64,000 nt of DNA from contig NC_067206.1 in assembly GCF_026262505.1 (NCBI RefSeq), positions 13,388,205 through 13,452,204 of the forward strand, given 5' to 3'. The notes beneath the pieces were generated by a model. That model made no database searches and was not told where the DNA came from. It saw nothing but the letters and a program-made list of their open reading frames with translations. The translations under genes and the position numbers were made by a program. Shown here piece after piece: positions 3,001 through 62,157 of this stretch. This DNA is from Trichomonas vaginalis G3. Lineage: Eukaryota > Parabasalia > Trichomonadida > Trichomonadidae. How positions within the stretch are numbered: the first letter of the stretch is position 1; each line of letters starts with the position of its first letter.

Positions 3001-3359
3001 AATGGACACATATTTTCTGACTGCTTGAAGTCATAAACCAATCCTGAAATACATCTAATTACTGTACAGTTTCTATAAAATATAAAAAAAAATTATTTTC
3101 TTTTCTCTTATACTGACTTTCTGTTGTTCATTTGTTGAAATTTGAATTTTCTTGAAGAGCCACTTCATATAAGTCCTAGAGTATGAATTTTCTTATGTTT
3201 TCTAATACAAAATACAAATACTTTAATCAGCCAGTTTGCCATAGTCTTCCAATTCGAAAACCTTTTCATGCCCTCATTGACAAATTACACTAGGACATTA
3301 ACAAAAGTCTTTCAACTCAAAAGGAAATCAAAGTTACTCGCGATCAACTCATAATGTCA
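1..3359. other. gene-free degraded sequence
   Basis: No convincing coding region was found on either strand. The longest frames (about 100 codons at 1096-1404 and 2052-2345) have no recognisable motif and behave like chance frames. The stretch is probably rotted Maverick sequence, where a polymerase or other core gene would be expected, but I cannot show that. Confidence 0.4.
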
Positions 3360-12168: not shown

Positions 12169-13161
12169 AAATATTAATTCATTTTGGTATAATTATTTTA
12201 TATGGATTTTAATAAACAGTTTTAATGTTTTGTAAACTATTCAATTTATGGGACCCTATCCTTTCGTTTCTAAAACAATGAATAGGAAGCATTTTTGGTG
12301 AGATTATCTATTGAATTAATATTATCATACTATATACGAATAGAATTAAAATATGTTATGCTATAATTATGCAAGAAAAATTCGAAATCGATTCTAATTT
12401 GTAAAATAAATTATACGTTGATGCAATGAAATAATATATTTAGTAAATATCTATTGATACAACAGCAAATCAAGTCTATGTATTTTTTTTTCTGGCGTTA
12501 AGGGTCCACTGTAAAAATTGAAAGTCTCTCAAAATTGAGAGGCGATTTGCAAATAATCGTTATCGTCTTTTTTCGAAAATCCACTTTTCCTAGTGTTCTG
12601 ATTAATATTTTGTGAATGTAACAATAAAGTATATGTTTTAGTAAGATGATAATACATTCTATCACTTCAAATCACATAAAAATTGCAAAATCAGCGAGTT
12701 TTATAAGAACATGATTTTTTCGAATTTTTTTGCTTCTGGATGCGTGTTTTGAAAAATAGATATTTTCGAATTTTGATTTTAATTTAAGTATAAATTTTAT
12801 ATTAGGAATTTTTTGACCTATTTCCAATCATTAATTCCTAAGTTTTTCTAGGAATTTAATTGAGAAGAAATTAGGAAATTCGCTTTAATGCCATTACATC
12901 CTAATATTGTGATGCATGTAGTTTATATTTATTGAGGCTAATGCCGGAATATCGTGCATTTTATAAAAAATTCAAAGAATTGACAATTGGATAGCACAAA
13001 TTTAATTCTCTAGACAAAGTATTATTGTTTATATATTCAAAGCATTATCCTTCGTTTTGAAATGTTGGCCAAAAATTTTCGTGTTATTTTTGGGAACAGG
13101 ACAAATTTGCCACACGGCACTTTTTTAAAAAAAATTAATGGAGCGGAGCGATACTCTGCTG

Positions 13162-13575
13162 CAGGAGCCCCAAGGCTCCCAATCATTACGAAAGGGAGCC
13201 TCAGGGCTCCTGAGAATCCATCAGCAGAGGCCTTTTCATTTGGCCTCTGCTGATCAAAGATTCGGCGAAGCCAATTCTCGTCTCAGGAGCCCCAAGGCTC
13301 CCAATCATTACGAAAGGGAGCCTCAGGGCTCTGAGAACCATCAGCAGAGGCCTTTTCATTTGGCCTCTGCTGATCAAAGATTCGGCGAAGCCATTCTTCG
13401 TCTCAGGAGCCCCAAGGCTCCCAATCATTACGAAAGGGAGCCTCAGGGCTCCTGAGAATCCATCAGCAGAGGCCTTTTCATTTGGCCTCTGCTGATCAAA
13501 GATTCGGCGAAGCCATTCTTCGTCTCAGGAGCCCCAAGGCTCCCAATCATTACGAAAGGGAGCCTCAGGGCTCCT
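13162..13575. repeat. hairpin satellite: two alternating palindromes, period about 121 bp
   Basis: Palindrome E starts with CAGGAGCCCCAAGGCTCCC and ends with GGGAGCCTCAGGGCTCCTG; it occurs four times, starting at 13162, 13284, 13404 and 13526. Each is a 19-bp stem with two central C/A mismatches. Palindrome F, ATCAGCAGAGGCC with GGCCTCTGCTGAT, is a perfect 13-bp stem with a 9-nt loop and occurs three times (13220-13254, 13340-13374, 13462-13496). A small CGAAG/CTTCG stem lies between units. Frames of about 100 codons across it are repeat artefacts. Confidence 0.95.
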
Positions 13576-13584
13576 GAGAAACCT

Positions 13585-13793
13585 CTTTGAGAAGGTTTTC
13601 TTAAAGAAAACCTTCTCAAAGATGATTGTCAGCATTCACTCAAAATCTACCAAGAGTTTCAAAGTTTCAAATCTATCTGAAATGAAGCTTTGAATCTCTT
13701 GTATATCTAATTGTAGAGGTACCTTTTCAAAATGTCTTCTATTGATTAAATTTAATCAGTAAAAGTCATTTTGAAAAGGTACATCTCTATAAT
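13585..13793. repeat. three further distinct hairpins after the satellite
   Basis: (i) 13585-13600 with 13606-13621: perfect 16-bp stem, 5-nt loop. (ii) 13651-13664 with 13688-13701: 14-bp stem, one mismatch. (iii) 13719-13734 with 13767-13782: perfect 16-bp stem, with an inner perfect palindrome TGATTAAATTTAATCA at 13743-13758. Their sequences are unrelated to each other, and the motif AGCATTCACT recurs at 13631 and 13802. Confidence 0.9.
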
Positions 13794-14527
13794 TGCTATT
13801 GAGCATTCACTCTTGGAACCTTGGAGCTCTTGTGTAGTGCATGAAAACTCCAAGATTCTAGCATAAAACATATATCATAGACATAATTTCTTCAAATATA
13901 ATTTAAGGTTATTTTTAAAAAAAATAGAAAAGCGTAATTTAAGGTTATTGAAAAAGTGACACCTGGCAAATTTGTCCCGCACTCGTTATTTTTTGTGTTT
14001 CAGCATAAATTATGTATTGACTTATGAAAGATAAGCATTTTATTCATTATCATAAAGATATACCAAAACAAATTGATAAAATTTTAAAAAATGTGTATTT
14101 TAGTGGGTATTATTCTGGCCAATGCCCATTTTTAAACGATTTAATATTGACCATATCAATAGCCGACTCAATGTAAAAATTTAGATATTATTTTTTTCAT
14201 TATTCAAACTTTGATAAATTTTAGTATAATGAATGATTTTGTTTCGTGTATGATACAGAAATGAAAAGCTTGATTAATATCATTTTGCATTTTTTCAAGA
14301 ATGTTAGAGTACATCTACATTAAAAAATCGGATTCGAATTGCGATACTGCATCAAATTGTTGCACATCTGATAAGGATCTCAAAAGAGTAAAGTTAATTT
14401 TTTTGTGTTTTTTAAGTTTTGGGCCTTAGTAAAAACACCATCTTGGGCAATATTTTTGGGACGACGATAGGCCTTATTTGGCCTTACAATGGACCCTTAA
14501 AATTTTAACCGTTTCTCAACTAAAAAT

Positions 14528-25792: not shown

Positions 25793-27787
25793 AGTGTGAA
25801 TGCGTTTTATAATTGATGTTGATGCAAAATATTTCTTTATGTTCCTGAAAAACTTCGATGTTTCTTGATTGCAAAATTTAATTTTAAAAAACTAACAATT
25901 TCTTAACTAAAGAAGAACTATTTATGGTCAAATCCAAAATGTTCCATATTAAGTTCTGTCAAAATGTAAGCTATTCAATTCTATCGTCGGGGAAGTATCA
26001 CAAATCTATCAATTTTTTTGTAAAAGTATACAAAAACATATGGTGTTCAATTAGTTTATAATAATATAAATATTAAGATTATCCAAAATAAGAAAAACTA
26101 GGTTTTGAGAACACTTTTGAGATGATAATCAAAATATTTTGATTGAAAAATAATATATTATTTATCAGATATCGAATGGATTTTTTCAAATTTAAAAATT
26201 CTGAAAAATAAACAGTTTTGTAAAGTAAAAAAAATGAACGAAAACTCGAGACCTCGTATTCCAAATGAATGGGTAAGATATATGTATGAAAAACTTGAAA
26301 GTGGTGAGTAATGATGTCAATTTGGAAGAAAAGTGAGAAAATTCCTAAAATGCTAAAAATGAATTTTCCAAACGTACTTTTTTATCGCATTTTTTTGATT
26401 TTGAAAAAAAATTTGGAGAGAAGAACTCTTCGTTTTTGAATTTTGTCACGATGGTTTTAAAGTATATTAGACACATGTATTGATATTACTATTTTTGTAT
26501 ATTTTGAGAGAAAATCCCTAAAAAGTGAGAAAATCTAAGACGGTTTGAGAAAATATATAAACTATTGAAATTTTGAATTAAACTTCTAATTTGGAAAAAA
26601 GAAATTTGGAAAGAAGAAAATTCAAAAATCGAGATTTAGACTCAGTATCAAATGGAGAACAAAATGTTTCTTCATATGAAGGAAAAAAATTTTCTTGTGA
26701 AGAAATAGAGTTTTTAAAATTTTATTGTATGTAATGAAATAAACAAATATTAAAATTATTTTTTGATAACAAGAAAATTCCCAATAGAAAATATTTGAGA
26801 GAAAGAAAAAAAGAAAATTGAAAAATATTACTCTTCTTTATATTTCATGAGATTTTAAATTTATTCTCATAAAATTGACAATTTTATACGTTTAGATGAA
26901 AATAAGTGATTTTGGTTGAAATAGAAATTATTATTTGCTTACAGCTATCAAATAGATTTTTGCTATTTTGATTAAAATTTGTTAATCAAATTAATAATTT
27001 TTTCTAAATATCTTAAATATCTGGATCACTCACATATACAATGAATTGAACGATAAAAATAATACAAACTCAACTAAGTTTCCTGTCTTTCAACTAAAAA
27101 AATTATGCAAATTAAATTAAATTGTTTATTCAAATATAAAACAAAGATGAAGTAATTACAGTTATCATAAACTTTATGAATAACTCTGTAATTGGTTCAG
27201 ATTTTCGTAAAAATATTTTTATTAATATCGATAAGAATACGTTTACCTACTATCACAACATATCGATAAACAAGAGTAGAGTGATTTTTATCATCGAAAC
27301 TTTTTAAAAGCTGTAAGCTGGAAGGAAAAATCTTGTTTTTTCTGAGTTAGTTGTAGAACTATTGATGCACGAGTTATCATTGTGATGTAGAAGGATGTCA
27401 ATGTACTGACTGAAGGATATGAAGTGAATTGAATTTCATTGCATTTCAATTTGATCAAAATTTGTTGAAATGATATGAATGTGTCAACATCTGTATCACT
27501 CTCTTTCACTCCTTCCCTATTCTTTCGAGAACGAAGCTAGCTCAGCTTTCGCTGAGCGAATTGACACTTTTGATGTCCTAAACGTACATGCTCTCAAATT
27601 TATCGAAAAAAATTATACCACCTAAACTAGTATATTCTTATTTTAAATATGATATTATCCTTAGAATCCACACTAGAATATATTTAAATCAACTTTTAAA
27701 AAAGTTCGAATCCTGCGCGTCTCACTTTTTAAATTTTCGAAAAGGAAAATTATATTCTCCTAAAATGAAAACAATTTTCCGAATTGA

Positions 27788-28708
27788 CATCCTTATGGTG
27801 AGTTAACATACGCAACAGTTTTGAAAAAAGTTCCATATTCTTATCAAAATGTTACAATTTTCAAACAAATTTCAAGAAATACTCTCAAAAAAGCATTCAA
27901 AGAAATCGGTGGTACACCAAAAATTAAAAGTGGTCCTCCACAAGAGGAATTAACTCCAGAATTAATTTTGAAGGTTCAGAATTCTTATGAAAATTACAAA
28001 TGTGGGGTTCAAAAATTGTATTGGACTCTCAATATGAATCCAAAACAATTTCAAATCAGTTACAATGCAGTTATTAAGGCAGCAAAATTTCTGGGAATTT
28101 ACAAAGAAAAAGATAAAAGTAATCCAAAAGCATATTATGTGGATTATGAAGCAATTCTTCCAAATACAATCTGGCATGTGGATATTCATTTTTTGAAAGA
28201 ACCAGAAACTTTACCGGTTTATGGAATAATTGATGACAAAAGTCGTTATTTGTTAGCATTGAAATTGCTTCGTAACAAAAGTTCAACAGAAACTTCAAAA
28301 GTGGCAATTGCAACAGTTCAAAAATATGGAGCACCTTTCTGTTTCTGGTCAGATAACGGTAAAGAAAATGAGGGAGAGTTCACAAAATTTTTGAGTACTT
28401 ATGACATTCAAATCAGAAAATCAGCTCCATACATGCCACGTCAAAATGGCAAAATTGAACGCCTCTGGCCATCACTGGACAAAAATGCTCCAAAGTCTTC
28501 AGAATTTGAGAGCATCAATCAGGAATTGGAAGAATTCAGGCAAAAATACAATGACATGCCACATGGCGCTCATCCAAAAATTGGAGTTCGACCATACACT
28601 CCAAGAGAGGTTTACAACAAATTTAAGAAATGGACCAAGGATGATAAACCGCTCTGGAAAAAATGTGTTAATAAGCAGTGGGAAGTTGAAGAGATTCCAA
28701 ACTATTGA
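27788..28708 (+). CDS. DDE (rve/IS3-like) transposase, 5' end unclear
   Basis: The frame is open from 27788 to 28708 but has no ATG before the domain; the first possible codon often used in frame lists, 27821, is TTG. Counted from 27821, catalytic Asp 121 lies in NTIWHVDIHF, Asp 178 in FWSDNGKEN and Glu 213 in RQNGKIERLW, with 34 residues between the last two. The order and the NGKIER motif are those of retroviral-integrase-type (rve) transposases such as IS3/IS481 and their eukaryotic relatives. A helical N-terminal HTH-like part (SRNTLKKAFKEIGG) precedes it. Either translation starts elsewhere or the copy is 5'-damaged. A related fragment lies at 61851-62108. Confidence 0.75.
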   Translation, partial: HPYGELTYATVLKKVPYSYQNVTIFKQISRNTLKKAFKEIGGTPKIKSGPPQEELTPELILKVQNSYENYKCGVQKLYWTLNMNPKQFQISYNAVIKAAKFLGIYKEKDKSNPKAYYVDYEAILPNTIWHVDIHFLKEPETLPVYGIIDDKSRYLLALKLLRNKSSTETSKVAIATVQKYGAPFCFWSDNGKENEGEFTKFLSTYDIQIRKSAPYMPRQNGKIERLWPSLDKNAPKSSEFESINQELEEFRQKYNDMPHGAHPKIGVRPYTPREVYNKFKKWTKDDKPLWKKCVNKQWEVEEIPNY

Positions 28709-29071
28709 AATATTCTATATTTTTTTTCAAAAATTCTCATTCAAATTTGAATTTGGTTTTCAAAATTATGAATAAACATTATTTTTATTAAACTTGATTT
28801 TTAGCTCTGAAGAATCAAAAGAATTTAGCGAGAAAGAATATGCAGCTCACATAGGGGTAGATAAAGATATATCTCGAAAAAAATTGAATTTATTGTAAAG
28901 AATGAAGAAGTTCATTTTAAGATTGAGTTGATTTTCAACCAAAACGAGAGAGCATGCAGGCAAATGAAATTCGAAAAGTGAAAGGAATGACATATGCAAA
29001 AGAAAAGATTCAAATAACGCAAGCGAAATATAGATCAGTTAAAATCAGAATAAAATTTCGATCTTTTCTAC

Positions 29072-29523
29072 AGGGAACTAAAGGCTATGAGGCACTGATA
29101 TAAGGTCAGTGCCTCATAGCCTTTAGTTCCCTACTAAAAGTGAGAACACTTGTTCGCAATGCGAAATGATTGCGAACAAGTTTTCTCACTTCAGCGAGGG
29201 AATTGTTCCTTATGATGCATACATAATAATATATACATCATAAGGAACAATTCCCTCTAGATAGCTGGGAAACTTTCTCTAAGTAACTTATCATTTGGAG
29301 AAAGTTTCCCAGCTATCTACTGGGAACTAAAGGCTATGAGGCACTAATATATAATCAGTGCCTCATAGCCTTTAGTTTGTTATTAAAAACGAGAAAACTT
29401 GTTCGAAATGATAAACAATTTCGAACAAGTTTTCTCGTTTTAAGGAGGGAATTGTTCCTTATGATGCATACATTATAAATATATACATCATAAGGAACAA
29501 TTCCCTCTAGATAGCTAGGAAAC
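29072..29523. repeat. array of seven complete hairpins plus one half, A-B-C-D A-B-C-d
   Basis: A1 29072-29098 with 29106-29132 (27 bp, perfect). B1 29138-29160 with 29169-29191 (23 bp, one mismatch). C1 29196-29217 with 29236-29257 (22 bp, perfect). D1 29258-29279 with 29298-29319 (22 bp, perfect). A2 29325-29345 with 29357-29377 (21 bp, perfect). B2 29386-29409 with 29418-29441 (24 bp, perfect). C2 29445-29466 with 29486-29507 (22 bp, perfect). D2 is only the left arm, from 29508. The four-hairpin unit is about 250 bp. Arms B1 and B2 differ at three paired positions, and each change is compensated. Confidence 0.95.
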
Positions 29524-29924
29524 CCTAAATTAACTATTAATCTTTGAGATATTTTTTTTATTGAGGTTAATACGTTTTTCTAAATAATTAAAATGTAAAA
29601 TTTTGATTGTGAACTCATCTCTAATATTTTGGCTCCTTAATATATTTGAATCATGATCTTTGAGAAGAGTTCTCAAAAGTATTCACAAAAGCTATTTTTC
29701 CTTGAAATTTAAAAATCCTGTTTATCATATATTACCGAATTCAATTCCCTACATATTTCAAAATATTCTATGAACATTTCAATTTTTGAAAAAAAATATA
29801 TTTTTTCCAAATATATTTATTATCATATTTCTAATAATATTTCCTAAAGTGTCACTTTTTACTTCCTCGATGATTATTTCCCTCTCAAAAAATTCAATAG
29901 CCTACATTTTGACAGAACTTAATA

Positions 29925-30605
29925 TGTAACAAAAAACAGATAGATTACCGAAAAAAATAAACATAAAATTTTTATATTTATTAAATACAATTATTTCGAA
30001 GATACTACTTGAATTTCATGTAACTCAAAAGTAATCTTCTTATTGTAGGGGTAAAACAAGTTACAAGTAATAAAAATCCAGAAATTTTATTACTGGTTGT
30101 GCGTGTGCACTAATATTTATTTGATAACTGTATGCCGTTCATTATTATAGCAGCTAATTTACCAGTTAACTATTGGGTAATGTCGATTTTTGATGAATTG
30201 CAATTCCTTTCCAAAAATTGGCAAGACGGATTTTTTTCATTTTCTACGAACTTATTATATATTTGTATGTGATTTATTTCCATGATTTTCAAAGAGAAAG
30301 CGCGGTCTCAAAAATATTTCATAAATTTAATTTTTTATGATAGAGATTTTCCGATAGGGTTATAAGTGTTTTCGAATTTTAGTAATCTTGGCTGATCAAA
30401 TGATGAGAAAATTGATAGGTTGCAAAAAATCAAAATATGTTCTTTTTTGTAAAGTTTAGTTCATGCAACAAACATTGAATTCTCTTAAGAGTGTGCTAAT
30501 GCTTTGCTTGCTCTAAAATCTTGATTATATTCAAAGGGTATTACGAGTTGTGAAGCTAATAAATGCCCCTTGATTTTTTGAAAATTTATAAACGTCATCA
30601 AATTA
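29925..30605. other. intergenic, AT-rich
   Basis: Between the transposon and the gene at 30606. I see no gene and no strong repeat here. Confidence 0.5.
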
Positions 30606-62108: not shown

Positions 62109-62157
62109 ACATAACATGGGTACGGAGGCACTGCGTTCCACCGTACCCCTGTTATGT
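62109..62157. repeat. 17-bp hairpin abutting the transposase fragment
   Basis: ACATAACATGGGTACGG (62109-62125) pairs with CCGTACCCCTGTTATGT (62141-62157), one mismatch, loop 15. Confidence 0.9.

Follow-up and report, generated by a model that had tools for sequence, protein, structure and literature searches.

What is an array of near-perfect palindromes doing inside a DNA transposon of Trichomonas vaginalis G3, and what keeps the two arms of each palindrome alike? The array stands at 29072-29523 of the window, by which we mean the whole 64,000-nucleotide stretch that was analyzed, and consists of seven hairpins in the order A1, B1, C1, D1, A2, B2, C2, followed by the start of another D. Its presence, claimed in an initial annotation made from the letters alone, is above chance: six of the seven hairpins scored 20-27 in a scan of the window (C1 was masked there by overlap), and in 20 first-order Markov simulations of the 64-kb window the top score was 15, reached by a single hairpin. 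Five further window hairpins scored 16-24, two of them in an AT-rich repeat at about 7.6-7.9 kb and three at about 13.4-13.8 kb. A1 (29072..29132) has perfect 27-bp arms and a 7-nt loop, B1 (29138..29191) has one mismatch, D1 (29258..29319) has 22-bp arms and an 18-nt loop, and B2 (29386..29441) has perfect 24-bp arms; A2 (29325..29377) and C2 (29445..29507) were placed by the hairpin scan, and C1 (29196..29257) and the truncated start of D that ends the array (29508..29523) by reading the sequence, with no strand assigned to any of them. These had been described as four unrelated hairpins. They are really two alternating kinds, since A resembles C (type 1) and B resembles D (type 2).

The enclosing DNA transposon, also proposed earlier, was confirmed as a 3992-bp element on the forward strand at 25940..29931, the window member of a family that we call F1. 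It has TGT...ACA ends, and copies at other loci stop at or within a few bases of both. Its terminal inverted repeats (TIRs) are 41 bp long (25940..25980, forward strand; 29891..29931, reverse strand) with 3 mismatches between them, and AAAA flanks the element on both sides, a possible 4-bp duplication that nevertheless lies within an A-run. An integrase/transposase reading frame extends from its first ATG at 28034..28708 on the forward strand (Pfam rva_4, 2.6e-11; rve, 3.7e-9), where the genome search gave a 306-aa open frame, and the array lies between this gene and the 3' end of the 4-kb element. The main text of Kojima and Bao (2023, PMC10045372) describes IS481EU as DNA transposons of parabasalids, including T. 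vaginalis, with TNT...AYA termini, TIRs mostly shorter than 50 bp, target site duplications (TSDs) of about 4, 15 or 24 bp, a single DDE transposase related to that of prokaryotic IS481, and non-autonomous derivatives. The termini of F1 and of a second family, F2, follow that rule, as does the length of the F1 TIR, and 4-bp TSDs were seen by eye at both ends of all five F2b copies (L061, L063, L066, L067 and L070). Among the eight F1 copies with both ends, a TSD was seen by eye in three (L016, L026 and L028) and not in the remaining five, nor in L057; AAAA is found at L056 as well as at the window copy. With its ends, short TIRs, 4-bp TSDs, T. vaginalis host, non-autonomous derivatives and an integrase-type transposase (rve/rva_4 core by Pfam match), the carrier is an IS481-like transposon that fits IS481EU.

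We also searched the genome with the array and obtained at least 212 matches (40 of 612 candidates scored). Sequence was retrieved for 20 long loci (9.5-9.9 kb), 18 short loci and additional samples, and the copy survey covered 67 sequences, namely 66 loci and the window copy. The A-D array was present in 59 of the 67 and missing in eight (L049, L050, L052, L054, L055, L056, L057 and L059), two of which, L052 and L059, carry other hairpins of the same two kinds. Family F1 accounts for 37 of the 59 array-bearing sequences; the order is exactly ABCDABC in 19 of these 37, and array size ranges from one hairpin (L058) to 35 (L014). An arm of the C hairpin, with at most one mismatch, occurs 718 times on the forward and 711 times on the reverse strand of the genome, against none for the reversed control. 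When 14 loci were picked from the listed C1 places of that search, an F2-type end sequence lay beside the array in 13, and the fourteenth (L074) gave a short flank match only. The array is thus a transposon-borne satellite, a set of tandem repeats inside a mobile element, variable in copy number and present at many loci. An assembly artefact, which had been a worry, is unlikely because copies occur at many loci with different flanks, some of them with TSDs.

One internal deletion (window 26309-27796) is common to seven of the 20 long F1 copies (L009, L010, L013, L015, L022, L023 and L026), so this deletion derivative has spread. Outside this genome, viral contigs gave no relatives by protein or by arm pattern, and phage records gave none either; a protein search returned five proteins, one labelled T. 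vaginalis G3 (TVAGG3_0696070) and none naming another species. With 150 of 857 candidates scored, long runs of a further integrase (about 379 aa, 39% alike to that of F1) were seen on C4 at 8.28-8.60 Mb and 20.78-20.99 Mb, the copies usually following one another at intervals of about 9 kb. The five stretches read from this integrase group (L075-L079) contained no array.

How, then, is the array shared among families? The integrases of F1 and F2b are about 51% alike, and their flanks are 63-65% identical in the best local alignments (143/219 on the 5' side and 197/311 on the 3' side); their arrays, compared as group consensus, agree at 179 of 186 stem positions and 44 of 47 loop positions. Between F2a and F2b the corresponding figures are 373/427 for the 3' flanks, 186/186 for the stems and 46/47 for the loops. 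Relative to the homologous ends, moreover, the array in F2 runs in the opposite direction to that in F1. Given that the loops are conserved like the stems, pairing alone is insufficient as an explanation, while passage of the array between families explains the pattern; the array travels as a module from one transposon family to another and may lie in either orientation. Another array, designated Y, has diverged but keeps the same geometry; it was found in an element with other ends that is inserted into the F1 integrase at L027. Y occurs at 40 places at 99-100% among the 40 scored of 801 candidates, and the reading frame beside it gave Pfam matches below the cut-off. We tentatively take the Y-array element to be Maverick-like, from its terminal AAAGTGACA motif.

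The feature that had attracted most attention was the set of matched changes between B1 and B2, three stem positions that differ, each with the corresponding change on the opposite arm. These differences are as described. The single mismatch of B1 is also real and confined to B1, but it is private to the window copy, being found in one of 95 F1 B hairpins. Among these 95, 45 carry the AC/GT allele, as does B2, 21 the GT/AC allele, as does B1, 22 are AC/AC hybrids and seven have other combinations; the two alleles differ in loop and flank too. Recombinant B hairpins with a mismatched stem thus persist in F1. We then counted 85 rare stem variant copies in F1, of which four were compensated, 18 gave G-T, 17 A-C and 46 other mismatches, so that 81 of 85 are unpaired; some of these variants stem from array-edge hairpins cut short, as in L058. 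Together with the 22 arm hybrids, this indicates that B1 and B2 are two old alleles and do not record ongoing compensation. Over the short term there is no compensation in the arms: the observation stands, and the inference that compensation is under way does not. In F2, 92 rare stem variant copies comprised 38 compensated, 13 G-T, 19 A-C and 22 other cases, but these counts were set aside because a further, divergent C-like hairpin is included in the C class of that family (order CDABCC at L045, L046, L062, L064 and L065). Most of the matched F2 changes occur together in three copies, which we take to be L062, L064 and L065.

The statement that loops drift freely while stems stay perfect was partly borne out. 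Mean pairwise diversity within F1 is higher outside the stems than in them, but loops are conserved like stems between families, and rare stem variants in F1 (0.48-0.81%) are no less frequent than those in the flanks (0.11% and 0.49%). Rare loop variants in F1 amount to 3.4%, 1.1% and 0%, on few sites. On the recent scale, therefore, no constraint on F1 stems is visible.

These counts also bear on the suggestion that the array works at the RNA level, its transcripts folding into hairpins that might, for instance, be precursors of small RNAs. Stems that are nearly perfect over 20-30 bp and closed by short loops would suit such a role, and small RNAs of about 34 nt are described as covering transposons in T. 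vaginalis (PMC7845603). However, a structured RNA should favor G-T over A-C mismatches, and the numbers were 18 and 17 in F1 and 23 and 17 over representative hairpins, a comparison that holds only if one strand is transcribed. Rfam returned 82 matches at E-values up to 1, none of which reached its own gathering score (the best had 42.3 of 67 bits), which gives no support to a microRNA or other Rfam RNA. Furthermore, with respect to the element ends the array points in opposite directions in different families, although palindromes fold on either strand, and between families the loops match the stems in conservation. We therefore consider an RNA role improbable.

Over longer divergence the arms behave differently. 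Among 23 divergent pairs of type-2 hairpins, 98 of 100 positions changed on the left arm were also changed on the right, and among 102 divergent pairs of type 1 the figure was 540 of 598; where the left arm was unchanged, the right had changed at 22/334 and 196/1619 positions, respectively. This coupling is inflated because only hairpins were sampled, and we do not take it as proof of selection. The proposed covariation of the arms accordingly holds for long divergence but not for recent F1 variants. The alternatives offered for it were selection on a folded RNA or DNA and a process that copies one arm from the other, and it is the copying process that has left two traces: the A loop is inverted in two units of L019 and three units of L038, while no inverted B, C or D loop was seen in the surveyed arrays. 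Such inversion of the loop of a single hairpin is a trace of exchange within the hairpin. Monttinen and Loytynoja (2022, PMC8794818) describe how perfect hairpins can arise and be maintained by template switching, a DNA-copying mechanism that can yield perfect stems with compensatory changes even if no base pair is individually selected. Their account treats RNA genes, whereas the T. vaginalis array leaves most recent mutations uncorrected; an arm-copying process here would therefore be slow.

We next consider the geometry. Of 420 intervals between the centers of neighboring hairpins, 370 measure exactly 62.5 bp; all come from fetched loci and from hairpins that passed filters of score, length and composition (the arrays were mapped with these hairpins only). 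This distance is also the most frequent one in 22 of the 27 distinct neighbor pairings, with two ties counted against it, and the pairings are not independent in that the 62.5-bp arrays may share one ancestor. It is found among hairpins that range from 40 to 101 in length with loops of 0 to 19 nt. A type-1 and a type-2 hairpin are neighbors in 25 of the 27 pairings; the other two join type 1 to type 1, at about 90 bp. The array period is 125 bp with two dyad centers per period, 62.5 bp or about six turns of B-DNA apart, and nearly the whole array is consequently palindromic. A 125-bp repeat with one dyad must have a second at half its period, which accounts for the two alternating kinds of hairpin. 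However, this rule leaves unexplained why 62.5 bp persists through divergence. In the four pairings of A, B, C and D, 40 of 367 intervals deviate from it, so that indels do occur in recent copies and the constancy does not come from their absence. The motifs are fixed with respect to the dyad as well: type 1 has TACCTC at positions 8-13 (17 representatives) and type 2 has AAGTTT at positions 14-19 (8 representatives), with variable positions between.

Hairpins of other kinds were also noted, and two sets of them do not share this phase. A smaller element is nested at window 13095-13976; its ends are inverted (GGACAAATTTGCCA...), and it carries its own hairpin array, in which CAGGAGCCCCAAGGCTCC hairpins alternate with ATCAGCAGAGGCC hairpins; this array (13162-13579) is a 122-bp dimer (about 50 and 72), its arm pattern occurs 455 times forward and 534 times reverse in the genome, and both of its stem mismatches are of one polarity. 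At L055 884-1710, downstream of a third integrase family (43% alike), dissimilar hairpins with several mismatches follow one another irregularly, also out of phase. There is a lone imperfect hairpin at window 62109-62157 (3 mismatches in 23), with similar-looking ones in L021 and L055, an isolated hairpin with perfect 28-bp arms at L018 2724-2789, and one perfect hairpin with 20-bp arms that is the same at two loci (L028 640-681 and L075 673-714). In addition, AAAGTGTCACTTT or close variants occur near array or element ends in several families (window 29846-29858, L027 at about 3290-3305, L059 at about 560-576, and L055).

If the dyads are read by a protein, is it the transposase of the element itself? 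The palindromes could be its binding sites, needed in cis for transposition. In F1, F2a and F2b copies that have the transposase gene, the array does sit in the interval separating that gene from the 3' end, and it is retained in gene-less derivatives (such as L029, L033, L036, L039 and L040). However, in at least 25 of 40 scored F1 5' ends the partner TIR is only about 0.7 kb away, these short elements are 99% alike at the 5' end, and both that were read (L056 and L057) lack the array. Given that elements without the array have spread too, transposition does not need it. A similar array is also found in an element with other ends (L027). The likeness of the hairpins to the TIRs was inconsistent over eight tests, two giving low p values (0.003 and 0.017) and the other six being null (at least 0.13). 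This explanation is therefore very improbable.

Taken together, in the loci read, copy number varies, the module is shared between families and most recent arm mutations are uncompensated; the arms of divergent hairpins agree, spacing is mostly 62.5 bp, and motifs are fixed to the dyad. We favor, at a probability of roughly 45%, a transposon-borne palindromic satellite whose arms are slowly re-matched by copying or exchange and whose geometry is kept by a putative dimeric DNA-binding protein. Under this proposal the array would be cargo of IS481-like transposons and their short derivatives. Its arms may be re-matched occasionally by hairpin-templated copying, either by template switching or by conversion between arms, which could also flip loops. 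A putative sequence-specific dimeric protein would recognize the palindromes in their duplex form, from one side of the helix, and this binding would keep the dyad spacing and the motifs. The array is probably read as DNA by such a protein, to judge from the spacing and motifs. The lack of visible recent constraint, with F1 stems no more conserved than flanks, counts against this proposal. So do the short elements that have spread without an array, the sampling of hairpins alone, which accounts for part of the arm agreement, the inconsistent likeness to the TIRs, the other hairpin arrays of this genome that are out of the 62.5-bp phase, and the possible common ancestry of the arrays that keep it.

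A close rival, plausible though short of an even chance, is a neutral palindromic satellite with no protein reader, in which inverted duplication and template switching made the 125-bp repeat, unequal exchange amplified and homogenized it, and transposons dispersed it; the arms would agree since, in DNA prone to form hairpins, one arm serves as template for the other. The absence of visible stem constraint within F1, the dispensability of the array in short elements, the loop inversions, the variation in copy number and the reported capacity of template switching to maintain perfect hairpins (PMC8794818) all agree with neutrality. However, a neutral satellite has no force to restore the 62.5-bp spacing, which is the most common distance in most pairings even though recent intervals deviate, and positions of high information adjoin positions with almost none. 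We also considered a bolder form of the protein-bound satellite, namely a mobile helically phased palindromic scaffold with dyads every six turns, bound by a putative dimeric protein and moving between unrelated superfamilies (IS481-like and the element with Maverick-like ends), whose geometry outlasts sequence change. This extension is rather unlikely.

A change in one arm of a hairpin that is matched in the other is generally accepted as proof that an RNA folds there. In the many palindromes of this one genome the same signature can come from old alleles, from exchange of arrays and from slow re-matching, and in the T. vaginalis arrays these sources can be counted separately. The near-constant spacing and the fixed motifs make the idea of a satellite held in shape by a protein directly testable. 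In addition, transposons that take up the array from other families, in either orientation, evolve in a modular way that would be overlooked when families are annotated one at a time.

Finally, we compared the array with known systems. REP palindromes are paired with a REP-associated tyrosine transposase, whereas the carrier here is a transposon of another class that encodes an integrase-type transposase, and therefore the array was not assigned to the BIME/REP group. Bacterial BIME arrays of REP palindromes, as presented in PMC2817692, are similar in that their palindromes are regularly spaced, are associated with a transposase and are reported as sites of protein binding. T. vaginalis is, however, a eukaryote, and its palindromes are mostly 46-65 bp, against the 20-40 bp stated for REPs in PMC3733652. 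Within IS481EU itself, the words 'hairpin', 'palindrom' and 'tandem' have no occurrence in the main text of PMC10045372, and the palindrome array is an addition to the description published there. This agrees with the initial annotation, which knew of no described family of this kind: no description of such arrays came up in searches of an open-access collection that excludes most subscription journals. The satellite-like tandem arrays of oyster Helentrons, as described in PMC7492417, are likewise short tandem arrays dispersed as the cargo of mobile elements. In contrast to these, the period in T. vaginalis holds two dyads at half its length and is palindromic almost throughout, and different transposon families have exchanged the module, in both orientations.
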